From positions 1 through 31,404 of the IMG/VR virus record IMGVR_UViG_3300008050_000013: a stretch of DNA of 31,404 nt, one strand, 5' to 3'. Every line of letters starts with the position of its first letter. Positions within the stretch are counted from its first letter, which is position 1. Made by a program: the position numbers and the translations under genes. This stretch comes from a virus. Below are positions 8,986 through 31,404 of the stretch, in pieces. Under the pieces are notes generated by a model, which did no database searches, was not told where the DNA came from, and saw only the letters and a list, made by a program, of their open reading frames with translations.

Positions 8986-11600
8986 TGGCAGGAGAGGAGA
9001 AAAAGGTCGTAATTGATATTGACATCAAAGCGGAGGACATTCTGGCGGCTAAGGATGCAATGGACAAAGCAACGGATTCAATGGCTGAATACCGTAGCGA
9101 AGCAGATAAGTTGAAAGGAGAGCAGAAGCAACTCAATACCCAATTAAAGGAGGGAGAGTTGACGATGGAGGAATATAGAGCAGAGCAGGCAAAGATCACT
9201 CTCCAACAAAAAGAGGTGTCTAAAAATCTACGGGAATCATCCAAAAGCTTTGCAGACAACAAGCGGATAATAGATGCAACGAAGGGTTCTAATGAGCAGC
9301 TAAGGGCGAGGCTTTCAGTCCTAACGAAGCAGTACAACGGTTTGTCCAAAGAGCAGAGAGAAAACAGTGCAGAGGGCAAGAAAATGGGTAGCACCATGAA
9401 ATCTCTGACCGATAAGCTAAAAGAGAATGAGAGTGCGGTGGGAGATAACCGGAGGAATGTGGGGAACTATCAGGAGGCGATTGAGAATGCTCTTGGATCG
9501 GTTAATGTAATGGGCGTGAATGTTGGAGGGTTGGTCAAGCAATTGAAAACGCAAAAAGAAATCCTGCAAAAGATGGTTGTCGCGCAGAAGGCGAGCAATG
9601 TGGCGACAGGCGTAGGGACAAAGGCTATGCGAATTTTCAAGATAGCATTGGCATCAACGGGGATCGGGTTACTTATTGTTGCATTGGGCAGTTTGGTTTC
9701 CTTTTTCACACAGACAAAGCGAGGTGTTGAATTGATGGATCAGGCATTGGCAGGGATCAGGGCAACGGTGTCTGTTCTGGTTGATCGGTTGAGTATGTTG
9801 GGAGAGGCATTGGTTAAAGTATTCGGGGGAGACTTTGAAGGTGCAGCAGAACAGGCAAAGAGTGCAGTGAGTGGAGTGACAGAGGAGATAGTGAAGGAAA
9901 CGAAAGCGGCTGCGGATCTAGAGAAACAAATGCAGAAATTGACAGATGCAGAGAGAGCGTTGACTGTTGAGAGAGCCAATTCCAGAGCAGAGATCAAACG
10001 GCTGAATCTGATCGCAGAGGACACTACGAAGTCATTAAAAGAGAGAGAGGAGGCGGCACAGTCAGCGATTGACATAGAAAAAAGGCTGATGGCAGAATCC
10101 ATTCGACTCGCACAGGAACGGGTTGATATTATTACAAAGCAGAATGAGCAAGGCGAAAGACTGAGAGAGGATCTGGACAAGCAGGCAGAGGCAGAGAAGG
10201 TGTTGGCAGACATAAAGATGGAGAGTCTGGAGATGCAGACAACCTTGAATAATAAGCTAAATACTATCCGGCAACAGGAACACGCCAAACACAAAAAGAT
10301 CCAAGACGAGAAACTGAAAGCAACGGAAAAGGAGAGAAAGGCAGAGGAGAAATTGGAAAAGGAACGGAAAAAACGCAGGGAGGAGTTCCGGTTGGAGAGT
10401 CTGGAGGAGATAGAGAGAGAGAAAGCGAAAGCGATAAAAAAGGCGAAGATCTGGAGAGAGAGTGGAGTGGATGAGGAAAAGGTGAATGCGTTTCTAAGCA
10501 AGAAGCTGATAGAAATAGACCGAGATGAGAGAAAGGCGAGGATTGATGAGAAGCTAAAATTCTATGACGAGGAGGCAGAATTGGCGCAGCAGAAAGCCAT
10601 CCAGAATATCGAGGATGAGGAGGTAAGAACTCTGACATTAGCGGAGATAGAGCGAAGCAGATTAGAGGCAAGGGCGCAGTTATTGGATCTGGAGGCGATG
10701 CAGTATCAATCCAACAAGGATGCGTTAGGCGTTATTGATGAGGAATTCCAGAGGGAGATGCTGTTGCAGAAGGAGGTGGCAGATGCCGAGTTGGTGGCGT
10801 TGGATAGAGAGAAAACAGATGCGCTGATTGAACACACAGGAGAGGTCAAAGCGGAACAGATGGCTGCGTTACAGGCATCGGGGAATTTGGTTGGAGATAT
10901 ACTTGGAGGGATCAAAGGGATGATGGATGACAACATCGCCCGTATGACAGAACAAGCGAAAGCAGCAGGAAAAACAGAGGAGGAGAACGCCCAGATAACA
11001 AAGAAAGCCAGAAAGGAGGCTCACCAAATGGAGATAGCTATGGCTATTGTCCAGACATTGCAAGCGGCTATTTCAGCGTACAGCGCAGGATCAGCAGTAC
11101 CTATTGTTGGTGTGGCATTAGGACCGATTGCAGCAGCCGCAGCGATGGCGTTTGGATTTGCTCAGGTAGCACAGATGAGTAAGCAGAAATTTGCAAAGGG
11201 TGGTGTGTTGAAAGGTCGGACACATGGACAGGGAGGCATACCTATTTCTGTCAATGGGAGAGGAGGATATGAGGCAGAACACAATGAGATAGTGCTAACA
11301 AAGGGCGTGTACCAGAATCCAAGACTGAGGAGGGCGGCAAGCGATCTGAATGTGTTGGGTGGTGGGCGCAGTTTATTGAGTTCAGAGAGTACGGGACACT
11401 TTGCCGCAGGGGGGGTTCTAAACCAGAACAGTACCTTTACAGCAAGACAACATTCCTCTGGGATGGGATTAACGAGGAGAGATATTACTGATGCAATGGG
11501 AGAGGCTGTGAGGCAGATGCCTCCTCCACAAGTGAGTGTTGGGGAGATTGAGAGAGTATCAGCGAGGAAACAAAAAGTGCAAGTAACATCCGAAATATAA
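8985..11600 (+). CDS. Tape measure protein
   Basis: This 871-residue protein is of the type that sets tail length and passes through the host envelope. The N-terminal 160 residues are highly charged coiled coil, followed by the GNYQEAIENALG phrase common in tape measures. A hydrophobic segment lies at about 217-241. A long lysine- and glutamate-rich coiled coil spans about 310-680, a second hydrophobic region about 684-730, and a glycine-rich tail with KFAKGGVLKGRTHGQGGIPI follows. At about 0.15 nm per residue this predicts a tail near 130 nm, consistent with a siphovirus. It overlaps both neighbours as TAATG. Confidence 0.9.
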   Translation: MAGEEKKVVIDIDIKAEDILAAKDAMDKATDSMAEYRSEADKLKGEQKQLNTQLKEGELTMEEYRAEQAKITLQQKEVSKNLRESSKSFADNKRIIDATKGSNEQLRARLSVLTKQYNGLSKEQRENSAEGKKMGSTMKSLTDKLKENESAVGDNRRNVGNYQEAIENALGSVNVMGVNVGGLVKQLKTQKEILQKMVVAQKASNVATGVGTKAMRIFKIALASTGIGLLIVALGSLVSFFTQTKRGVELMDQALAGIRATVSVLVDRLSMLGEALVKVFGGDFEGAAEQAKSAVSGVTEEIVKETKAAADLEKQMQKLTDAERALTVERANSRAEIKRLNLIAEDTTKSLKEREEAAQSAIDIEKRLMAESIRLAQERVDIITKQNEQGERLREDLDKQAEAEKVLADIKMESLEMQTTLNNKLNTIRQQEHAKHKKIQDEKLKATEKERKAEEKLEKERKKRREEFRLESLEEIEREKAKAIKKAKIWRESGVDEEKVNAFLSKKLIEIDRDERKARIDEKLKFYDEEAELAQQKAIQNIEDEEVRTLTLAEIERSRLEARAQLLDLEAMQYQSNKDALGVIDEEFQREMLLQKEVADAELVALDREKTDALIEHTGEVKAEQMAALQASGNLVGDILGGIKGMMDDNIARMTEQAKAAGKTEEENAQITKKARKEAHQMEIAMAIVQTLQAAISAYSAGSAVPIVGVALGPIAAAAAMAFGFAQVAQMSKQKFAKGGVLKGRTHGQGGIPISVNGRGGYEAEHNEIVLTKGVYQNPRLRRAASDLNVLGGGRSLLSSESTGHFAAGGVLNQNSTFTARQHSSGMGLTRRDITDAMGEAVRQMPPPQVSVGEIERVSARKQKVQVTSEI

Positions 11601-16269: not shown

Positions 16270-16845
16270 ATGAGTTGTGCGAGTACACTTACGACAACAA
16301 CACCAAGTTGTGATGCTCTTAAAAAGAAAGGAGGATTCGACAAACGTTTCTGGATAGGAAACATCAGCGAGTTGGATAGTGTGACCTTCGGAACAGAGCA
16401 AGAGGTAACGGCATTTACTTTCGCAGCCACTAAGGGTCTGAAAACAATCACAGGTAAGAGGTTGAAGCATGGTGCAGCACATAGTCTGGAGGTTGGAGAG
16501 AATGTCTCCATGAGAGTGCAGAACTTCAATGCTGTGCTGTTTGCAAGAAGTGCAGTAGAGAGATTGAGTCTGGAACAACTGATTGATGCAGAGGATGTAT
16601 TCATAGTTGCGGAAGGGAATCACGGACAGATTGAAGTCTTTGGAATCAACAAAGGCGACAATTCACAGTTCGATAACTATGGGTTGATGGTGTCCTCTGG
16701 AGAGAAAAATGATGGCATTTTGCTTAATGATGACACAAGTGCAAAGCTGACATTCACAGGGCAATTTGACAATTGGAATCTTGTTTATGATGAGGGATCA
16801 ACTTTAGCGGTAAACATCGCTGCATTGGACGCACAGGTTGTCTAA
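16270..16845 (+). CDS. Putative major tail (tube) protein
   Basis: This 191-residue protein opens with a cysteine pair and the phrase GGFDKRFWIGNISELDSVTF. This resembles the start of an abundant structural protein of many Bacteroidota siphophages, in which GGIKxVYIANxxD is followed by a threonine-rich beta domain. The remainder is beta-rich with no signal peptide. It stands alone between two hairpin terminators, so it can be expressed at its own level, as suits a tube protein made in many copies. A capsid decoration protein is the main alternative. Confidence 0.5.
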   Translation: MSCASTLTTTTPSCDALKKKGGFDKRFWIGNISELDSVTFGTEQEVTAFTFAATKGLKTITGKRLKHGAAHSLEVGENVSMRVQNFNAVLFARSAVERLSLEQLIDAEDVFIVAEGNHGQIEVFGINKGDNSQFDNYGLMVSSGEKNDGILLNDDTSAKLTFTGQFDNWNLVYDEGSTLAVNIAALDAQVV

Positions 16846-23365: not shown

Positions 23366-23503
23366 GAGTGCAATGTACTAAATAACTTAGATGCGATATT
23401 AAAATAAATTCAATATTTATCCACTGAATGCTTGTGCGGTAACTATGGATATATTATATTTGTTCTAAGAAAGTCAAACTAAAAACACCGAAAACACAAA
23501 GCA
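23366..23503. other. Divergent intergenic region, possible origin and early control region
   Basis: This is the largest gene-free, AT-rich gap near the early genes. It holds GTAC-N6-ACTTAG (23375-23390), an AT-rich run (about 23395-23420), a DnaA-box-like TTATCCACT (23417-23425, one mismatch to TTATCCACA) and the early promoter at 23430-23462. The phage encodes a DnaA-domain-IV-like protein. An origin here is possible, but a single imperfect box is thin evidence. Confidence 0.35.
23430..23462 (+). promoter_or_regulatory. Early promoter P1 (GCTTG-N20-TATATTTG)
   Basis: GCTTG (23430-23434), 20 bases, then TATATTTG (23455-23462) fits the Bacteroidota -33/-7 pattern. It is followed by TTCTAAG. 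The same design, with equal spacing, recurs at 27371 and 29384. Expected transcription begins about 23469, some 35 bases before the first early start at 23504. Confidence 0.85.
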
Positions 23504-23698
23504 ATGGAAGCACCAAAAGAAACAGTTAAGGATTACAACGAAGGGTTGGAAGGTATCGAGTTTTTAAGGGGGTTGGTAAAAACGTTCAATTGTAGAAACG
23601 AGTACCTAAACGGGAACAAAACCCCACACCAATTGATGAATGAATATATGAGGTACTTGAAAGATGAAACAGACATTGAGGGAAATAAATTAGACTAA
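23504..23698 (+). CDS. First early gene, hypothetical (64 aa)
   Basis: This 64-residue soluble protein is the first gene after promoter P1. The leader contains AACACCGA (23484-23491) and a second AACAC before the start, the recurring leader of this genome region. The protein looks helical (KDYNEGLEGIEFLRGLVKTF, ending with LMNEYMRYLKDETD), with no known motif. First-expressed small proteins in phages often act against host functions, but nothing here shows that directly. Confidence 0.6.
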   Translation: MEAPKETVKDYNEGLEGIEFLRGLVKTFNCRNEYLNGNKTPHQLMNEYMRYLKDETDIEGNKLD

Positions 23699-23716
23699 CC
23701 ATAAATAATAGGAATC

Positions 23717-23941
23717 ATGACAGCCAAGACACCCAATAATTATGCACGCAGAAATGCGGCAATAACATCTGAAAAGAGAGGATGCTATGAAGTTAGGTAC
23801 GAGTACTATTCTGCATTCATGAGTGTGATTGAGGGGAGAGATGTCTGGAATGTTGCAAATGATTGCTTTGAGACAAAACTGAAAGCATTGAATTTTATCC
23901 GGTTAAGTGATAACCAGAATCACAATACGTTGAAAAACTGA
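23717..23941 (+). CDS. Hypothetical early protein (74 aa)
   Basis: This 74-residue basic and aromatic protein has an A-rich leader (ATAAATAATAGGAATC before ATG). The pattern YEVRYEYYSAFMSVIEGRDV suggests a strand followed by a helix. No domain, membrane segment or signal peptide is seen. It is co-directional with P1 and closely follows the first early gene. The function is unknown. Confidence 0.55.
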   Translation: MTAKTPNNYARRNAAITSEKRGCYEVRYEYYSAFMSVIEGRDVWNVANDCFETKLKALNFIRLSDNQNHNTLKN

Positions 23942-23952
23942 AAAGGAGAGGG

Positions 23953-24183
23953 ATGACAGTTGAACTAACAAGAGCGCAAGCAGTAGCAATCATAGGAACA
24001 TCAGGAGGGATGCTGATGGATTCTGGGACAGCATTGATGCACTTCATCAACCTAAGAGGAATCAACACCTACATTAGAGCAACCAACAAGATCCGGTCAA
24101 GGTTCGGCTATGTCTGCATTAACGAATGGACAAAGGAGGATATTGCTGATGCAGGATATGTGCGTTCACAGGAATTTCATTAA
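23953..24183 (+). CDS. Hypothetical early protein (76 aa)
   Basis: This 76-residue protein has the start MTVELTRAQAVAIIGTSGG. It resembles small N-terminal helices of DNA-binding proteins but without a recognisable helix-turn-helix. The rest (INTYIRATNKIRSRFGYVCI) is basic and mixed. A Shine-Dalgarno-like AAAGGAGAGGG lies seven bases before the start, unlike most genes of this region. The function is unknown. Confidence 0.55.
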   Translation: MTVELTRAQAVAIIGTSGGMLMDSGTALMHFINLRGINTYIRATNKIRSRFGYVCINEWTKEDIADAGYVRSQEFH

Positions 24184-24203
24184 AAACTAAAAATCAAATT
24201 AAC

Positions 24204-24422
24204 ATGAAAATGAGATCTAAATTTACAGAGGCGAATATCCGGAAACTGGAGAAAGCCTTGCCGTATAATGCAAAGAAGATAATCGCAAAAAGGTTGGAGA
24301 TGAGTTACCCAACGGTATGCGATGCTTTTAAGAATATCAGGAAAGCGAGAGAGGATAGAACTCCGATATACCAAACAGCCATCGAAGTATTGAGGGAGAG
24401 GGGACTAACACTGAAATGGTAG
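24204..24422 (+). CDS. Helix-turn-helix DNA-binding protein (72 aa)
   Basis: This 72-residue, strongly basic protein has a probable helix-turn-helix in about residues 20-45 (AKKIIAKRLEMSYPTVCDAF), followed by basic IRKAREDR and a C-terminal helix. It resembles small transcription regulators of Bacteroidota phages and elements. The leader is A-rich. The hairpin directly after its stop (24426-24461) could end its transcript or regulate the next gene. Its target is unknown; the early promoters or the nearby hairpin are possibilities. Confidence 0.6.
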   Translation: MKMRSKFTEANIRKLEKALPYNAKKIIAKRLEMSYPTVCDAFKNIRKAREDRTPIYQTAIEVLRERGLTLKW

Positions 24423-24425
24423 AAA

Positions 24426-24463
24426 AATGGGAGTGCCAAAACACCATGAAGCACTCCCATTGA
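24426..24463 (+). promoter_or_regulatory. Perfect hairpin with five-codon ORF, attenuator-like
   Basis: AATGGGAGTGC (24426-24436) pairs perfectly with GCACTCCCATT (24451-24461), an 11-bp stem with a 14-base loop. The loop contains AAAACACC and ATG 24446, the recurring leader type. This ATG opens a five-codon frame (MKHSH) ending at TGA 24461-24463. A ribosome translating it would unwind the 3' arm. No T-run follows, so a simple terminator is unlikely. Confidence 0.6.
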
Positions 24464-24496
24464 AACCTTGCATGATCAACCTTAAAAATCATACAC

Positions 24497-24817
24497 ATGA
24501 AAAACGAAGTTACATATTTTCCAGAGTTCAAACAAATAACCACCAACAGGCGATCTGAGTTATCTCCAGAAGCGAGAGAGGTATCGCAAAAGATCATCAG
24601 CACATTCAACTTAGGGATTGATGATGATATGAAGATTCAATGCAGCAGCAGGGAGTTGGGGGAGATAGCCAGATTGTTGCAGAAGGATGTTCACAATTTC
24701 GGGGATGGCTATTGGATAGACATCTGGGATGGGATGGCAATGGAGTGTTCCATCACACTGGAAGCAAGCTGCCATTTTGAGGCAGTTGCAGGGGCGTTAC
24801 GACCTCCAATCGACTGA
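24497..24817 (+). CDS. Hypothetical protein (106 aa)
   Basis: This 106-residue soluble protein has an A-rich leader (CCTTAAAAATCATACAC before ATG). Several cysteines are present but without zinc-ribbon spacing. A helical part (LSPEAREVSQKIISTFNLGI) is followed by aromatic and acidic residues (GYWIDIWDGMAMECSITL). It lies before the recombination genes and after the 24426 hairpin, which may control it. The function is unknown. Confidence 0.55.
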   Translation: MKNEVTYFPEFKQITTNRRSELSPEAREVSQKIISTFNLGIDDDMKIQCSSRELGEIARLLQKDVHNFGDGYWIDIWDGMAMECSITLEASCHFEAVAGALRPPID

Positions 24818-24866
24818 AAATTAGTATATTAAACCTAAATAAATAAACACCAAAAATCACAATAAC

Positions 24867-25769
24867 ATGACACAAGTATCACAAGTATCAGCACCAAAAA
24901 CAACAATCCAACTGTTTGGGAACAATACAGTGCAAAAGAGATTCGAAGAGTTGCTTGGTAAGAAATCACAAGGCTTCATTTCCTCCGTATTACAGACCGT
25001 AAACAATTCCAATCTCCTCCAGAAAGCGAAACCCGAAACGATATTGAATGCAGCCGTAACGGCAGCAGCGTTAGATCTACCTATCAACCAGAATCTCGGA
25101 TTCGCGTGGATAGTTCCATACAAGGGCAATGCACAGTTCCAAATGGGTTGGAAAGGATATGTACAGTTGGCTTTGAGAACAGGACAATACAGCCGTATCA
25201 ATGTTACAGAAGTGAGTGCAAATCAATTCGTTTCCTTTAATGAATTAACGGAGGAAATAGATGCGGATTTCAGTATTGAGGGAGATGGCAAAGTGGTGGG
25301 TTACATTGGCTACTTCCGGTTGATCAACAGTTTTGAAAAGACTGTTTTCTGGAGTAGGGCGAAGGTTGAGAAACACGCGAAAAAGTATAGCCAGAGTTAC
25401 AAGAGAGGGCAAGGAGTATGGGCAGAGGGCGAGGATGGATTCGATGCGATGGCAAAGAAAACGGTACTAAAGAACATGATAGCTAAGTGGGGGATCATGT
25501 CCATTGAGATGCAGAGATCAGTTCTGGCTGATCAGGCTGTGATGACAGAGGAGGGATCATACCAATATGCTGACAATGTTCCGGACGTGAATCTGGAGGA
25601 GGAGAATAAGGAGGAGGAGATGAGGCGCATACTTTCTCACATAGAGAAATGTGATACAATGGATGATGTGGAGATCTTGGAGAACTCGATGCCAGACATG
25701 AATCCTGCGATCAGGGAGGCTCTGGATAATAGAGTGAAGATGATTAAAAAGGGTGCAAAGAAAAAGTAA
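24867..25769 (+). CDS. recT: RecT-family single-strand annealing protein
   Basis: This 300-residue protein is a clear RecT homologue. Its core reads LLQKAKPETILNAAVTAAAL, then LPINQNLGFAWIVPYKGNAQ and MGWKGYVQLALRTGQYSRIN, followed by AMAKKTVLKNMIAKWGIMS. The C-terminus (about residues 235-300) is charged and helical. It would pair complementary strands after resection by the adjacent exonuclease. The leader contains AACACCAA (24846-24853). The next gene, 27 bases away, is the matching exonuclease, so the two probably form a two-component recombination system used in replication and repair. Confidence 0.95.
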   Translation: MTQVSQVSAPKTTIQLFGNNTVQKRFEELLGKKSQGFISSVLQTVNNSNLLQKAKPETILNAAVTAAALDLPINQNLGFAWIVPYKGNAQFQMGWKGYVQLALRTGQYSRINVTEVSANQFVSFNELTEEIDADFSIEGDGKVVGYIGYFRLINSFEKTVFWSRAKVEKHAKKYSQSYKRGQGVWAEGEDGFDAMAKKTVLKNMIAKWGIMSIEMQRSVLADQAVMTEEGSYQYADNVPDVNLEEENKEEEMRRILSHIEKCDTMDDVEILENSMPDMNPAIREALDNRVKMIKKGAKKK

Positions 25770-25796
25770 ACAGAAAACAACCTAAAACACCAAACA

Positions 25797-26627
25797 ATGA
25801 AAGCAGTAGATTTCAGCAATCAGTTATTCCGGTGCAGTCAATTGGGGAGGATAATGGCAGGCGTTAAACCTGCATTGACCCAGAGACAGAAGGAAACAAT
25901 GACAGGACTTCTGGAGAAACAGAAAGCCGGCAAGATCACAGAGAAACAGACAATCACTCTGGGATCATTGCTTGACAAGAAAAATGCAAAGCCAGAATTA
26001 TCCACTACGACAAAGAAGTATCTGGATGAGATATTTCTGGAGGTTGTATTCAATAGAAAGCAGGAACTCCGGAATAAGTATCTGGATAAGGGCATCATGG
26101 TTGAGGAGAGCGCGATCACGTTGTACTCAGAAGTTACCGGAACGCTATTCCTGAAAAACAAGGATCGATTAAAAAATGACCTGATCATTGGGGAATGTGA
26201 CAATGCACAGGGCAAGATCAGAGACATCAAAAGCAGTTGGGATCTGTCCACGTTTCCTATGTTTGAGGAGGAGATGAACAATGACATCTATTGGTGGCAG
26301 TTGCAAGGTTATATGCAGTTATGGGATCTGGACGAGGCAGAGTTGGTTTACTGTCTGGTAGATACTCCTGCAATGTTGATCGATGACGAAAAGAGGAGAG
26401 TGAGTTGGCAGGGAGGGTATATTGACCTACCACAGAATCTGGAGGATGAGATCACCGCAAGCATGAGGTTTAATGATATACCTCCAGAGTTGCGTGTGAA
26501 GGTTTACGAAGTGGAGAGGGATGAGGCGGCAATGCAGAGCCTTGAGCAACAGATTGGAAGGTGCAGGGAGTATCTGGTGGAAAAACAGAACAAGATCCTT
26601 AGCAGGCTTAAAACAGATGCAGCATGA
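25797..26627 (+). CDS. YqaJ/RecE-like recombination exonuclease
   Basis: This 276-residue protein is of the PD-(D/E)XK fold. KGIMVEESAITLY (98-110) supplies an acidic residue, IIGECDNAQGK (130-140) the central aspartate D135, RDIKSSWDLSTFP (142-154) the D-x-K motif, and YWWQLQGYM (165-173) the conserved glutamine. This set is typical of exonucleases partnered with RecT. The start is preceded by AACACCAA (25786-25793). The last 50 residues are a coiled, charged tail. The gene overlaps the next small ORF by ATGA. Confidence 0.85.
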   Translation: MKAVDFSNQLFRCSQLGRIMAGVKPALTQRQKETMTGLLEKQKAGKITEKQTITLGSLLDKKNAKPELSTTTKKYLDEIFLEVVFNRKQELRNKYLDKGIMVEESAITLYSEVTGTLFLKNKDRLKNDLIIGECDNAQGKIRDIKSSWDLSTFPMFEEEMNNDIYWWQLQGYMQLWDLDEAELVYCLVDTPAMLIDDEKRRVSWQGGYIDLPQNLEDEITASMRFNDIPPELRVKVYEVERDEAAMQSLEQQIGRCREYLVEKQNKILSRLKTDAA

Positions 26628-26794
26628 TAGAATTTGGAGTACTTATTGACAGGGATCATATTGTATTGATTCCATCTATACATATTTGCTTAAATAATTG
26701 GGGCAACAAGATTCTATTTGCATGGCTTACTTGCACGATTCACGTAGATATATACAAACAAGACCATAGAAATGATAGCGACTCTAAAGGCTAA
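26624..26794 (+). CDS. Small hydrophobic hypothetical protein (56 aa)
   Basis: This 56-residue ORF starts at ATG 26624, overlapping the exonuclease stop by ATGA. It ends at TAA 26792-26794, inside the next gene. The product is hydrophobic and aromatic in the centre (LIPSIHICLNNWGNKILFAW) with a polar end. Without it the stretch 26628-26771 would be an unexplained gap. There is no clean membrane segment. The coupling to the previous gene supports it; the function is unknown. Confidence 0.5.
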   Translation: MIEFGVLIDRDHIVLIPSIHICLNNWGNKILFAWLTCTIHVDIYKQDHRNDSDSKG

Positions 26795-26972
26795 GAATGC
26801 TAATGTGATCAGTATAGAGACTGACAAGAGGCAGAACCCTCACTTTCATAAGATCGGGGCGATGATAGTAAACCTAATGAGAAAATACCGCAAGAGGAAA
26901 TTGGAGGAGGGGGTGATCGAGTTCCGGCATCAGGAGGAGGATGAGCCATTTTACATAGAGGTGTTGGAATGA
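26772..26972 (+). CDS. Small basic hypothetical protein (66 aa)
   Basis: This 66-residue basic protein has a helical centre (IGAMIVNLMRKYRKRKLEEG) and an acidic end (RHQEEDEPFYIEVLE). It overlaps the 56-aa ORF by 23 bases and the nuclease gene by ATGA. The basic helix could contact nucleic acid. No family is recognised. Position between exonuclease and VRR-NUC suggests a role in DNA processing, which is only inference. Confidence 0.55.
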   Translation: MIATLKAKNANVISIETDKRQNPHFHKIGAMIVNLMRKYRKRKLEEGVIEFRHQEEDEPFYIEVLE

Positions 26973-27343
26973 GGAAACGGCTAACAGAGGAGGAGAGGTT
27001 GCAGATCTCCTCCATGCGTTACATCCGGTATCAATACCCAAAAGTGATCAGCTTCCATGTGCGCAATGAAGGGATCAGCGGATCCAAAGGGCAGAGGATG
27101 GCTTATGGATCTAAAAGCAAACAGATGGGGGTTCTGGCAGGAGTTTCTGACATAATCATCCTGCAACCATCTGGAGACTATCATGGCTTATTGATAGAGT
27201 TGAAAGCCAAAAAGGGGAGAGTACAACCCACCCAGACTGTTTTTCTGGAGAGGGCGCAAAACGCAGGATACAAGACCGCAATATGCAGGGAATTGGATGA
27301 GGTTGTGGCGTTGGTTGACGAGTATCTCCAGAACAATACTTAA
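26969..27343 (+). CDS. VRR-NUC domain nuclease
   Basis: This 124-residue single-domain protein has the VRR-NUC order. HVRNEG (30-35) comes first, then GVLAGVSDIIILQPSGDYHG (54-73) with D61, then LLIELKAKKGRVQP (74-87) holding the E-x-K motif, then Q89 and the closing helix DEVVALVDEYL. Such stand-alone phage proteins act on branched DNA in the manner of Holliday-junction resolvases and may cut replication or recombination intermediates before packaging. The start overlaps the upstream gene by ATGA. It is the last gene of the P1 operon before promoter P2. Confidence 0.85.
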   Translation: MRKRLTEEERLQISSMRYIRYQYPKVISFHVRNEGISGSKGQRMAYGSKSKQMGVLAGVSDIIILQPSGDYHGLLIELKAKKGRVQPTQTVFLERAQNAGYKTAICRELDEVVALVDEYLQNNT

Positions 27344-27370
27344 AATAAATCTAAAAATAACGAGAGAAAT

Positions 27371-27403
27371 GCTTGACACGTATTGCTTTGCATATTAGAT
27401 TTG
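27371..27403 (+). promoter_or_regulatory. Early promoter P2 (GCTTG-N20-TAGATTTG)
   Basis: GCTTG (27371-27375), 20 bases, then TAGATTTG (27396-27403) and TTCTAAA. It shares ATGCTTG, the spacing and the TTCTAA after the box with P1 at 23430. It lies in the gap between the VRR-NUC gene and the gene at 27441. Confidence 0.85.
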
Positions 27404-27440
27404 TTCTAAATAATAAGTCACTAAACAAACACACCGAATC

Positions 27441-27635
27441 ATGGAAAGTACAGTATTGATAGAGAATGAAAATGTAGAGCAGTTCAAAAGTCTCCTACGA
27501 GAGTTTGATCTGGAGGATAATTTGAGTGAGGTCAATGAGTTAGACTTCCGGACTAATTTCCATTTTGTGATGTTGGAGAGTGATCAAGAGGATCTGGTGA
27601 ATTCATTGAGTGAGAATCTTACTAAAAACCACTAA
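27441..27635 (+). CDS. Acidic early protein (64 aa)
   Basis: This 64-residue, very acidic protein is the first gene after promoter P2. Its leader ends ACACCGAATC directly before ATG, and the next gene has the same leader. The sequence alternates acidic helices (VEQFKSLLREFDLEDNLSEV) with a short strand (FRTNFHFVMLESDQEDL). High acidity and early position are features of DNA-mimic or anti-host proteins, but there is no specific motif. Confidence 0.6.
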   Translation: MESTVLIENENVEQFKSLLREFDLEDNLSEVNELDFRTNFHFVMLESDQEDLVNSLSENLTKNH

Positions 27636-27647
27636 ACACACCGAATC

Positions 27648-27914
27648 ATGAAAGCAATAGATCTAATTAAAAGTTTCAAAGGGCAGGCTACATGGGGGCA
27701 GAATGCTTCCGATGGCAGACCGTTTGAGGGCATCAAATGGTTGTCAGTTAAACAGCAGAACTTCCTCTGGTCGCTGTGCAAAAAAGAAGATCCGGAGGGC
27801 ATTGATTTCTTTTCGGAATTTACGTGGGATGTTGATGGGTATAGGGTGAAGATGGGGAGGAAAGCACCAAACGGTTGCTTAGTTATGACATTCACAAATA
27901 CAAAGGGAGAGTAA
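27648..27914 (+). CDS. Hypothetical early protein (88 aa)
   Basis: This 88-residue protein follows the same ACACCGAATC-ATG leader as its upstream neighbour. It is aromatic and basic (GIKWLSVKQQNFLWSLCKKE) and ends in beta strands (GYRVKMGRKAPNGCLVMTF). No domain is recognised. The phrase WLSVKQQNFL resembles short phrases in uncharacterised phage proteins, which is not enough for a call. It is co-transcribed from P2. Confidence 0.6.
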   Translation: MKAIDLIKSFKGQATWGQNASDGRPFEGIKWLSVKQQNFLWSLCKKEDPEGIDFFSEFTWDVDGYRVKMGRKAPNGCLVMTFTNTKGE

Positions 27915-27916
27915 TC

Positions 27917-28111
27917 ATGGCAGACTCACAAACAACAATAGAGAGGCACGTATGCACAGAATGTGGATCAGTGAGCTATGAAATAGTTCCGGATGAATGC
28001 GAGTGCATGGTTGATCAGAATGATGATGATCAGCCTACGTATGAGGAAATCATGAGGAGTCTGGAGATAGCAAAGAAACAGTTAAACAATTATAAAACAC
28101 CGAAAGCATGA
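27917..28111 (+). CDS. Small zinc-ribbon-like protein (64 aa)
   Basis: I choose ATG 27917 (MADSQTTIERHVC) rather than an in-frame TTG 42 bases earlier, because it follows the previous stop and avoids overlap. The 64-residue product has two pairs of cysteines (CTEC and CEC, about 13 residues apart), which suits a short zinc ribbon. An acidic linker and a basic helix (MRSLEIAKKQLNNYKTPKA) follow. It overlaps the next gene by ATGA. It may bind nucleic acid or protein; the family is not recognised. Confidence 0.55.
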   Translation: MADSQTTIERHVCTECGSVSYEIVPDECECMVDQNDDDQPTYEEIMRSLEIAKKQLNNYKTPKA

Positions 28112-28851
28112 AAGTATCAGAGCAGAGAATCAAAGAGCAAAAGGATCTGGATAGGAAATATGACATCCTGCAAAAGTTGGAGGATGCAACAACGGAAAAA
28201 GATCTCCAGAGATTGAATCCAATTTACTATCACCACAGCAATGGGTTGGGGTTTGGAACTCTCACCGACAATAAAATCAGGACATCCAAAGATGTGCAAT
28301 TGATCATGGATGCTTTTCCGGTTAATGGAGACAATTACGAGAGGAGGTATGCAGGGAGGGAGAGTGATCCATCACATCATCCAATTGCAATCCATTGGGC
28401 GAATCCTGATAGAGTGATACCTGATCAATTCCGCGACTTTCGGATCAAATATCCAAGCGGAGACGTGGAGATCAGCATCATAGTGCAGTCTGAGTATTTC
28501 GGGGAGTTCCTTAAAAGGGCGAGTAGGAGTGTGAGAACAGGAGGAACAGAAGCAAATCCAAGATACAAGTGGTACAGTGATTATAATATAATAGCACCTT
28601 ACAGATCCTTTAAATGGGGAGGAGTGACAGGCTCATGCGTGATGTATTACGAGGATGCCTGTGGAGATGTGGAGGAGTGGGTGCGATTCATTAGAGAGGG
28701 GGGAGATTATGTACCGAGAGCAAAGAGATGTTCTGGAGGTAAGATCTCTGACTGTTGCTCTGCTCATCCAATATTGGATAGCGAGGATCTTGGGATCTGT
28801 ACTGATTGTAAAGAGCATTGTGAATATATCACTAACGAGGAGGAATCATGA
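28108..28851 (+). CDS. Hypothetical protein with C-terminal zinc ribbon (247 aa)
   Basis: This 247-residue protein is the largest unrecognised early gene. The first 40 residues are a charged helix. The centre is beta-rich with aromatic residues (WANPDRVIPDQFRDFRIKYP). The last 40 residues hold DCCSAHP, then DLGICTDCKEHC, a four-cysteine zinc ribbon seen at the ends of various phage proteins. The leader has AACACCGA 10 bases before ATG, within the upstream gene. It is coupled by ATGA to both neighbours. The function is unknown. Confidence 0.6.
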   Translation: MKVSEQRIKEQKDLDRKYDILQKLEDATTEKDLQRLNPIYYHHSNGLGFGTLTDNKIRTSKDVQLIMDAFPVNGDNYERRYAGRESDPSHHPIAIHWANPDRVIPDQFRDFRIKYPSGDVEISIIVQSEYFGEFLKRASRSVRTGGTEANPRYKWYSDYNIIAPYRSFKWGGVTGSCVMYYEDACGDVEEWVRFIREGGDYVPRAKRCSGGKISDCCSAHPILDSEDLGICTDCKEHCEYITNEEES

Positions 28852-29075
28852 GCATGGAACTAAGATGCGTATATGGATCAGAACATAGCCCAGATGTCGT
28901 TTACGTTTACGATGATTGGTATGCTGTGGATGGGGCATCAATTGTGAATCTGGCATCAGATAAGACCGATTGGCAGCATGGAATAGATGTGGAAATGGTT
29001 GAGGATGTGGATTGCTTTACGTGGTCTGATCCTATCCATTCATTACAAGAACTTATAAAAGCCGTTGAGTCATGA
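28848..29075 (+). CDS. Acidic hypothetical protein (75 aa)
   Basis: This 75-residue acidic protein is coupled to both neighbours by ATGA overlaps. The sequence is mostly strands with many tyrosine and aspartate residues (SPDVVYVYDDWYAVDGASIV), then a short helix at the end. No domain is recognised. It is one of a run of small acidic proteins in the P2 operon. Confidence 0.55.
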   Translation: MSMELRCVYGSEHSPDVVYVYDDWYAVDGASIVNLASDKTDWQHGIDVEMVEDVDCFTWSDPIHSLQELIKAVES

Positions 29076-29389
29076 ATAAGCTAAAAAAACTATTGAGCAA
29101 TCTCCAGATGAGAGGCGACAGCCTTCAATATTCAGAGGTGAAGATCATCCGGACAAGGTTGGAGGTGATATGTGAGACGATGGATCTGGTAATGAATTGC
29201 GAGAGTGATCAGGTGACTCTGGTAGGTGGGGTGCATTTGGAGTGGATAGTAACGATTGATGCACTGGAGTCTCTCTGGGTTATTCTGGAGAGGGATGTGG
29301 AGATCCATGAGCCAAAGGGGTTACTTGATTACCATTTTATGATGGTAACAGGAGACAAACTCTCTATCACCTTCAAAACTTTGGCTTGA
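29072..29389 (+). CDS. Hypothetical protein (105 aa), last gene before P3
   Basis: This 105-residue protein starts by ATGA overlap. The N-terminus is basic and helical (MNKLKKLLSNLQMRGDSL), the rest alternates strands and helices (VKIIRTRLEVICETMDLVMN). No domain or membrane segment is recognised. Its last codons overlap the GCTTG element of promoter P3 (29384-29388), so its 3' end doubles as promoter. Confidence 0.55.
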   Translation: MNKLKKLLSNLQMRGDSLQYSEVKIIRTRLEVICETMDLVMNCESDQVTLVGGVHLEWIVTIDALESLWVILERDVEIHEPKGLLDYHFMMVTGDKLSITFKTLA

Positions 29390-29416
29390 TTATGTGGATT
29401 ATCTCGATTAGTTTTA
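29384..29416 (+). promoter_or_regulatory. Early promoter P3 (GCTTG-N20-TAGTTTTA)
   Basis: GCTTG (29384-29388), 20 bases, then TAGTTTTA (29409-29416), one mismatch to TAnnTTTG. It has the same GCTTG and spacing as P1 and P2. A DnaA-box-like TGTGGATTA (29393-29401, inverted) lies between the two elements. It would drive the replication genes starting at 29571, through the structured leader. Confidence 0.6.
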
Positions 29417-29457
29417 ACCATGCGTTGGATGTCTAACCAATGCCAGTAAACACCGAT

Positions 29458-29571
29458 ATGCAAAAACTATTTATAATCTGGAGAGGAAATGAGGCTACAC
29501 ACTTTTCGGTGGGTGTTGGCTTTGGAGGAGTGACTTCCTCCTCCTCTCCAGTAATTAACAAACACCGATAA
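29458..29571 (+). CDS. Possible leader peptide (37 aa)
   Basis: This 37-residue ORF starts right after AACACCGAT, the leader type used by real genes here. It ends with TAA overlapping the next start as TAATG, so its translation could be coupled to the gene at 29571. The sequence (MQKLFIIWRGNEATHFSVG, then serine- and glycine-rich) shows no known family. The whole frame contains the predicted three-way junction at 29478-29551, so translation and RNA folding would compete. It may be a regulator peptide or not made at all. Confidence 0.35.
   Translation: MQKLFIIWRGNEATHFSVGVGFGGVTSSSSPVINKHR
29478..29551 (+). ncRNA. Predicted three-way-junction RNA element
   Basis: CTGGAGAGGA (29478-29487) pairs with TCCTCTCCAG (29542-29551), a perfect 10-bp closing stem. 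Inside, GGAGGA (29524-29529) pairs with TCCTCC (29536-29541), which abuts the closing stem. GCTACAC (29494-29500) pairs with GTGTTGGC (29513-29520) with one bulge and a wobble pair. The result is a compact three-stem structure 19 bases before the start at 29571. A cis-regulatory leader or small RNA is inferred. Confidence 0.5.
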
Positions 29572-30248
29572 TGGCAGAGGGCAAGAAATCATTTGTAGCT
29601 TACGTTGATTGGATTGAGATTTTTGAGGAGTTATCCGATGAGGAGGCAGGCAAGTTAGTGAAACACCTTTTCAGATATGTCAATGATCAGAATCCAGATG
29701 CACCGGATAGGATGACTAAGATGTGCTTTATCAACATTAAACAAGCATTGAAACGTGACCTCCAGAAATTTGAGATCATTAAGAATAAGCGAAGGGAAGC
29801 AGGGAGAAAGGGAGGAAAGCAAACCCAAGCAAACCAAGCAAATGCTTCTTTAGCTTCTCGCAATCAATCAAATCAAGCTGAGAGTGTTAATGATAATGTT
29901 AGTGTAATTGATATACAAAAAGAGAGTGCGCAGCCTTATTTTAAAAATTCAAAATTGAATGATCTATTCTCCAGATGGCTAAAGATGAGAGTAGAGAGTG
30001 GTGCGAGGCAGTTGTCGAGGTCATCTATTGAAGCGTTACAGATGAAAATGAACTATCAATCCATTGAGCAGAATCTGGAGGAGGTCAAGCAATCGCTTGA
30101 AAATGGTTGGTTGAAATTGGTACAGATTGACAAAAAGACTTACAAGAAAGGAGAGGAGAAAGTGACATATACACCTCCTCCGGAAATGATGCGAAGCATG
30201 AAAAAATTAACATCTAACATTGGAAACACTAAAAACACCAAATCATGA
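29571..30248 (+). CDS. DUF6291-like protein of the replication region (225 aa)
   Basis: This 225-residue protein has an N-terminal region (KKSFVAYVDWIEIFEELSDE, then AGKLVKHLFRYVNDQNPDAP and a basic stretch KNKRREAGRKGG). It has the pattern of DUF6291 proteins of Bacteroidota phages. A low-complexity asparagine/glutamine-rich linker follows (about 83-115), then a helical C-terminal half. Such proteins are usually next to replication initiators, as here, and are suspected helicase-loader or DnaD-type factors. The start has AACACCGA upstream. It overlaps the initiator gene by ATGA. Confidence 0.65.
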   Translation: MAEGKKSFVAYVDWIEIFEELSDEEAGKLVKHLFRYVNDQNPDAPDRMTKMCFINIKQALKRDLQKFEIIKNKRREAGRKGGKQTQANQANASLASRNQSNQAESVNDNVSVIDIQKESAQPYFKNSKLNDLFSRWLKMRVESGARQLSRSSIEALQMKMNYQSIEQNLEEVKQSLENGWLKLVQIDKKTYKKGEEKVTYTPPPEMMRSMKKLTSNIGNTKNTKS

Positions 30249-31027: not shown

Positions 31028-31404
31028 ATGAGCGTAGAGGACATAAGAAAGGAGTACGAAGAAGAATATCAAAGATTTGATAGAGGCTACATTCGCTATT
31101 CAGAGTGGCTTGAAGATAAACTAATACAAGCCAACCAACAGAAGGAGAAACCCCAACAGCAGAGCAGCGTTCAAGAAGATTATAAACTACAAGAAAAATT
31201 TGAGAAGTGGTACGTAGATACATACGAAGCAAACCCCTACCTACCAACGTTTTATGCGCTTGGATCGTCATTCCAATGGGGAGTGCTTCAGCTATTCGCG
31301 GATAGTGAGGGGTATGATTTATGTGCGTCACAATATGATTTAACTCTATTCGGGTGGGAATTATTCAAAGGCAACACTATGATTGATGAAGGGTTTGCTT
31401 TCAA
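31028..31404 (+). CDS. 5' part of a 146-aa hypothetical protein crossing the circular joint
   Basis: The gene starts at ATG 31028 and runs in frame to 31300, then continues at base 1 and stops at 168; 31301-31404 is the repeated copy. The N-terminal half is a charged coiled coil (VEDIRKEYEEEYQRFDRGYI), followed by a glutamine-rich stretch and an aromatic domain (FEKWYVDTYEANPYLPTFYA). No family is recognised. It is the last gene of the replication operon and is followed by the small membrane protein. Confidence 0.8.
   Translation, partial: MSVEDIRKEYEEEYQRFDRGYIRYSEWLEDKLIQANQQKEKPQQQSSVQEDYKLQEKFEKWYVDTYEANPYLPTFYALGSSFQWGVLQLFADSEGYDLCASQYDLTLFGWELFKGNTMIDEGFAF
31301..31404. repeat. Right copy of 104-bp terminal direct repeat
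   Basis: This copy is identical to bases 1-104. It closes the circle and gives a unique genome length of 31,300 bp. The reading frame of the 146-aa protein passes through it unchanged. Confidence 0.95.

Follow-up and report, generated by a model that had tools for sequence, protein, structure and literature searches.

Start-associated sequences (SAS) are known from Cluster K mycobacteriophages, and similar SAS occur in Cluster EF Microbacterium phages (PMC3203893, PMC7302621). They are 13 bp long, have a core that resembles a Shine-Dalgarno sequence (AGGAG in Cluster K), are present in about 10-19 copies and are often tied to extended upstream sequences, which in Cluster K are inverted repeats; their function is unknown, and a role in translation is suspected (PMC3203893, PMC7302621). 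For Bacteroidota, the published rule of initiation is an A at -3, -6, -12 and -13 (PMC6847099, PMC9976891). The way in which their ribosomes select a start codon when no Shine-Dalgarno pairing guides them is not settled. In T4, RegA acts on about 30 mRNAs at unstructured sites that abut the AUG or overlap it and have poly(A) on the 5' side (PMC3014915). Here, we describe a short RNA word, roughly AAACACCGA, that stands just 5' of nine early genes in a virus record and compare it with these systems.

The window analyzed covers a whole virus record, 31,404 bases in length. Its first 104 bp recur at its end as a direct repeat (1-104 = 31301-31404), so that it probably represents a complete genome, about 31.3 kb in size. 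The + strand carries every assigned gene. The left three quarters encode a ParB-like protein, a glucosyltransferase-like protein, terminase, tape measure, head protease, portal, and endolysin, while the region from 23504 on encodes RecT, an exonuclease, a VRR-NUC nuclease, a DUF6291 replication-like protein, a DnaA C-terminal-like protein, and many small unknowns. At 310-1688, adjoining the terminase, the ParB-like protein lies together with a match to a phage glucosyltransferase family (PHROG 842), a gene pair that might possibly serve DNA modification. Among named phages, the terminase is closest to those of Flavobacterium phages (55% identity) and RecT to those of Leeuwenhoekiella and Riemerella phages (63%). 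The record probably belongs to a phage that infects an uncultured member of Bacteroidota; promoters of the form TTG-N20-TAnnTTTG and the lack of Shine-Dalgarno enrichment agree with such a host.

Occurrence of the motif at early gene starts

A preliminary description of this DNA had listed nine starts preceded by AACACC(G/A)A or a close form. We found ACACC(G/A)A upstream of all nine, with seven reading AACACC(G/A)A and two, those before 27441 and 27648, the variant CACACCGA (CACACC). The first base of ACACC is at -10 for four starts and at -11, -9, and -8 for three more, so that seven of the nine fall within 4 nt of each other (-8 to -11), while it is at -19 for 23504 and at -20 for 24867 (Table 1). 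At 28108, 29571, and 30245, the motif falls inside the preceding gene, at the end of its coding sequence, and so it tracks start codons and is not an intergenic by-product. All eight copies of AACACCRA in the window are on the + strand, and the eighth, at 16299, is within a late coding sequence.

Table 1. Motif sites, putative promoters, and the hairpin in the early region
Feature	Position	Strand	Sequence	First base of ACACC	Context
Bacteroidota-type promoter	23432-23468 (promoter 23432-23462)	+	TTG-N20-TATATTTG, then TTCTAA		upstream of 23504
Motif	23484-23491	+	AACACCGA	-19	before start 23504
Hairpin, perfect, 11-bp stem, 14-nt loop	24426-24461	+	CAAAACACCATGAA (loop)		loop shows motif and AUG
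Motif	24846-24853	+	AACACCAA	-20	before RecT gene 24867
Motif	25786-25793	+	AACACCAA	-10	before exonuclease gene 25797
Bacteroidota-type promoter	27373-27409 (promoter 27373-27403)	+	TTG-N20-TAGATTTG, then TTCTAA		upstream of 27441
Motif, variant	27430-27437	+	CACACCGA	-10	before start 27441
Motif, variant	27637-27644	+	CACACCGA	-10	before start 27648
Motif	28096-28103	+	AACACCGA	-11	before start 28108; within upstream ORF's end
Motif	29449-29456	+	AACACCGA	-8	before start 29458
Motif	29561-29568	+	AACACCGA	-9	before DUF6291 replication-like gene 29571; within end of upstream short ORF
Motif	30234-30241	+	AACACCAA	-10	before start 30245 (DnaA C-terminal-like protein); within upstream ORF's end

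The motif had also been described as missing before the late structural genes, and the counts agree: ACACC(G/A)A is found no more than 20 nt from the start in 9/21 early genes and 0/29 late genes (Fisher p = 1.2e-4). This contrast is confounded in part, since most late genes run into the gene before them or directly adjoin it. When we kept only starts preceded by 10 or more non-coding nt, the early genes had the motif in 6/10 cases and the late genes in 0/8 (p = 0.013).

Against shuffled sequence, AACACCRA was observed 8 times with a shuffle mean of 1.94, and none of 100 shuffles reached 8. An equal frequency in A-rich DNA away from starts had been named as grounds for discarding the idea, and we therefore counted ACACC[AG]A in all 22-nt stretches of the early region with 9 or more A. 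It was present in 9/18 leaders and in 1/163 non-start stretches; A-richness does not explain the motif, although this p value (1e-9) belongs to a motif chosen after looking, so a blind test of all 7-mers matters more. In that scan AAACACC came out on top with 7 leaders, more than the best 7-mer in every one of 300 dinucleotide shuffles. With the starts of an automatic gene caller the result was weaker (5 leaders; 11/200 shuffles as high), because the caller overlooks the short gene 29458 and sets some starts at the wrong place. The start-associated pattern is real.

Relatives, host-phylum genomes, and other collections

We gathered 80 relatives through the terminase and compared their leaders, as the preliminary description had recommended. 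The outcome was mixed, with variants in a few phages and no repeated motif copies in most. The distantly related phage L006, whose terminase is 51% identical, has AAACAC(G/C) or a near form before about eight genes upstream of the terminase; of 25 AAACACG in this locus, 6 are in leaders (p = 4e-4 against its own background), an enrichment that is moderate because AACACG is dense throughout L006. Several relatives carry AAAACACGAA before terS, the gene adjoining the terminase, which from its position and sequence would be the terminase small subunit. Directly before terS, CACCGAA is repeated in tandem, in two copies with differing spacers, in L172 (about 9660-9685), L204 (about 2185-2212), and L216 (about 165-195). 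Another phage with a related terminase, L008, has AAGGAG-rich leaders (9/39 genes) and appears to use Shine-Dalgarno sequences.

For the early region itself, the phage collection contained no close relatives, and viral scans gave only L219 and L220, both without the motif, and distant ones. L220 is a phage from the metagenome series that also yielded the near-identical L005; its homologue of the 27648 gene, judged by eye, has an A-rich leader without ACACC. Variants in some relatives and absence in most suggest an element of this phage lineage and its cousins, which appears to have been gained and lost gene by gene.

To place the leader in the host phylum, we counted the leader-plus-ATG pattern in 395 genomes spread over Bacteroidota, with the reversed pattern as a control. 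No clear enrichment was seen in the 395 genomes: most had one to four matches per Mb, near the reversed-pattern control, whereas a direct reading of the phage gave five matches in 31 kb (about 160 per Mb). Nor was there enrichment of the G variant AAACACGA in 296 genomes. A host-wide leader was thus rejected at the sampled level, and since the phage's own host may lie outside the 395-genome sample, the case against a host signal is strong and not final.

The motif matched no Rfam element. The exact 16-mer ACACCGAATCATGAAA was found in only two other IMG/VR contigs, neither of which has a gene start there in its ORF listing, and the idea that the motif is common in other viruses was rejected on this count. 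Among the leader 7-mers of annotated Leeuwenhoekiella, Flavobacterium, and Riemerella phages, there was nothing comparable beyond A/T-rich words.

Possible roles of the motif

Shine-Dalgarno-like sequence precedes 19% of this phage's starts against an 18% background, in keeping with the expectation that such pairing is little used, and Shine-Dalgarno leaders were rejected. A is at its maxima at -3/-4 and at -11 to -14 of the phage starts, which agrees with the Bacteroidota rule (PMC6847099, PMC9976891). In the nine motif leaders, it occupies -13 in nine, -12 in seven, and -3 in seven, but -6 in only three, where many have C. These leaders are also nearly unstructured, with one exception; the mean MFE was -1.9 for motif leaders, -2.5 for other early starts, and -4.2 for late starts (p = 0.016). 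Two putative promoters, equally spaced and identical in their downstream end TTTGTTCTAA, precede 23504 and 27441 and suggest that there are two or more early operons. The motif is found directly behind both promoters and also deep within operons, with little change in its distance to the ATG, and this argues for action in the mRNA at initiation.

Taken together, the motif has a preferred position before the ATG and a single orientation, is enriched at starts, is restricted to early genes, and is not enriched in the sampled host-phylum genomes. We hypothesize, with a probability of about 0.5, that it is a start-associated sequence of this phage lineage that works in the mRNA and tags early and replication genes so that they share a level or timing of translation. 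Its fixed core, ACACC(G/A)A, would have been built onto the initiation region of Bacteroidota, which is rich in A, unstructured, and free of Shine-Dalgarno sequence. In the resulting leader, an A-tract would cover about -11 to -14 and ACACC about -10 to -6, with a further A around -3 to -4. The motif probably tunes or regulates early-gene translation, and we infer that its effect is to raise or coordinate initiation and not to serve a repressor. The earlier proposal of a phage-specific translation signal or a target of an early regulator stands insofar as the motif is lineage-specific, tied to starts, and confined to early genes; it may be either of the two, and no regulator was identified.

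Several observations stand against the start-associated reading. Many leaders have C at -6, where the published optimum is A; since it is often the ACACC core that sets this C, the motif needs a reason beyond the Bacteroidota rule, either as a positive element or as the operator of a regulator. The motif is 8-10 nt further upstream at 23504 and 24867 than elsewhere, most relatives lack it, as does the 27648 homologue in L220, and the host may belong to a clade that itself bears the leader.

The best-surviving alternative, which we regard as a serious minority possibility, is an RNA operator. An RNA-binding protein of the phage or of the host would bind it and so shut off or coordinate the early mRNAs, much as RegA does in T4, and the hairpin at 24426 would be a high-affinity or decoy site. 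The motif does have the positional and structural traits of a RegA site (PMC3014915), and the strongest hairpin of the genome, the only perfect inverted repeat in the window whose arms reach 9 bp or more (loop 3-20), follows directly after the small gene 24204-24422 and displays AAAACACC-AUG-AA in its loop, the motif being at 24440-24445 as first described. This single case is suggestive of a recognized RNA word. However, neither RegA nor another RNA-binding family was matched in Pfam or PHROG among the early proteins scanned, the hairpins of the relatives examined show no ACACC motif in the loop, and none of the leader sites is itself a hairpin. As an intrinsic terminator, the hairpin at 24426 was rejected, because no T-run follows it on the + strand, and on the - strand, where a T-run does follow, no gene is assigned.

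We consider it possible, a shade more tentatively, that ACACC(G/A)A is a sequence-specific tag in the mRNA for ribosome recruitment or for regulation, independent of Shine-Dalgarno pairing and read by a ribosomal or phage factor, which prioritizes phage early mRNAs. Phages would have evolved such a tag for ribosomes whose anti-Shine-Dalgarno is locked away.

It is unlikely that an ancestral leader was simply copied along with gene starts by duplication or recombination, leaving an ACACC core of no specific function. In several motif genes the similarity does run past the ATG (ATGAAAGCA, ATGAAAGCT, and ATGAAAGTA), and 25797 and 27648 share CACC..ATGAAAGCA(G/A)TAGAT(T/C)T. Yet the ACACC core is conserved where spacing and flanks vary (29458, 29571, and 28108), and in different relatives the variants are found at other genes.

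Even less support goes to an ordinary A-rich Bacteroidota leader whose core is shared by coincidence, a reading we hold to be improbable. The leaders are A-rich as in Bacteroidota generally, and single host-phylum genes with the leader AAAACACCAAATCATG exist, but the matched A-rich control (p about 1e-9), the 7-mer shuffles, and the 395 host-phylum genomes without clear enrichment all disfavor it.

A DNA element, either an operator or a promoter part for an early transcription regulator, is very improbable. Such an element would account for the restriction to early genes and could be reconciled with the TTTGTTCTAA end common to the two promoters; the motif, however, is non-palindromic and in a single orientation, its distance is fixed to the ATG and not to the promoter, and the operon-internal copies have no promoter match nearby.

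Finally, we give almost no credence to a same-sense mimic of the 16S rRNA 3' tail (GGAACACCUCC) that fills the bS21/bS18/bS6 pocket and anchors the mRNA on the 30S platform: Flavobacteriaceae 16S ends in GGCTGGAACACCTCCTTTCT, which makes AACACC identical to positions 1531-1536, and the pocket binds A1534-U1544 (PMC9976891), but the likeness was noticed after the fact, only ACC matches the pocket-bound stretch, the CACACC and AACACG variants break it, and ACACACCG also occurs elsewhere in 16S.

Comparison with described systems

In a literature search of incomplete coverage, no such element was found described for Bacteroidota phages. If the start-associated reading is true, the phage element would offer a compact probe, open to direct testing, of Bacteroidota initiation or of a new phage translational regulator, and it would extend the SAS idea, which this search found only in papers on actinobacterial phages, to a phylum that initiates independently of Shine-Dalgarno pairing.

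The A-rich, Kozak-like region of Flavobacterium johnsoniae (PMC6847099) resembles the phage leaders in having A at -3 and -12/-13, little structure, and no Shine-Dalgarno sequence, but it has no fixed ACACC core and prefers A at -6, where the phage motif often has C. The RegA operators of T4 are similar to the phage motif in lying immediately 5' of the AUG, or overlapping it, in many early mRNAs, with a poly(A) 5' part and no structure; they are A+U rich with a weak consensus, whereas the phage core is strict and contains C.

The likeness to SAS goes further. Both are short asymmetric repeats, almost always in one orientation and a few nt before the ATG, and both are confined to non-structural genes, which here rests on 9/21 early and 0/29 late starts and is partly confounded by gene overlap. 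SAS are essentially absent from the host genome, and the phage motif is not clearly enriched in 395 Bacteroidota genomes, a sample that may lack its own host. The phage motif is shorter than the 13-bp SAS, with ACACC(G/A)A as its core; where SAS have extended upstream sequences, there is here one hairpin, away from the motif-bearing gene starts. Unlike SAS, it has no Shine-Dalgarno core (AGGAG), as expected for Bacteroidota, which are blind to such sequences, and for this reason we call it a variant of SAS and not a member. From these comparisons, SAS are the closest known kind, alike in position, strand, gene class, and probable mode of action.
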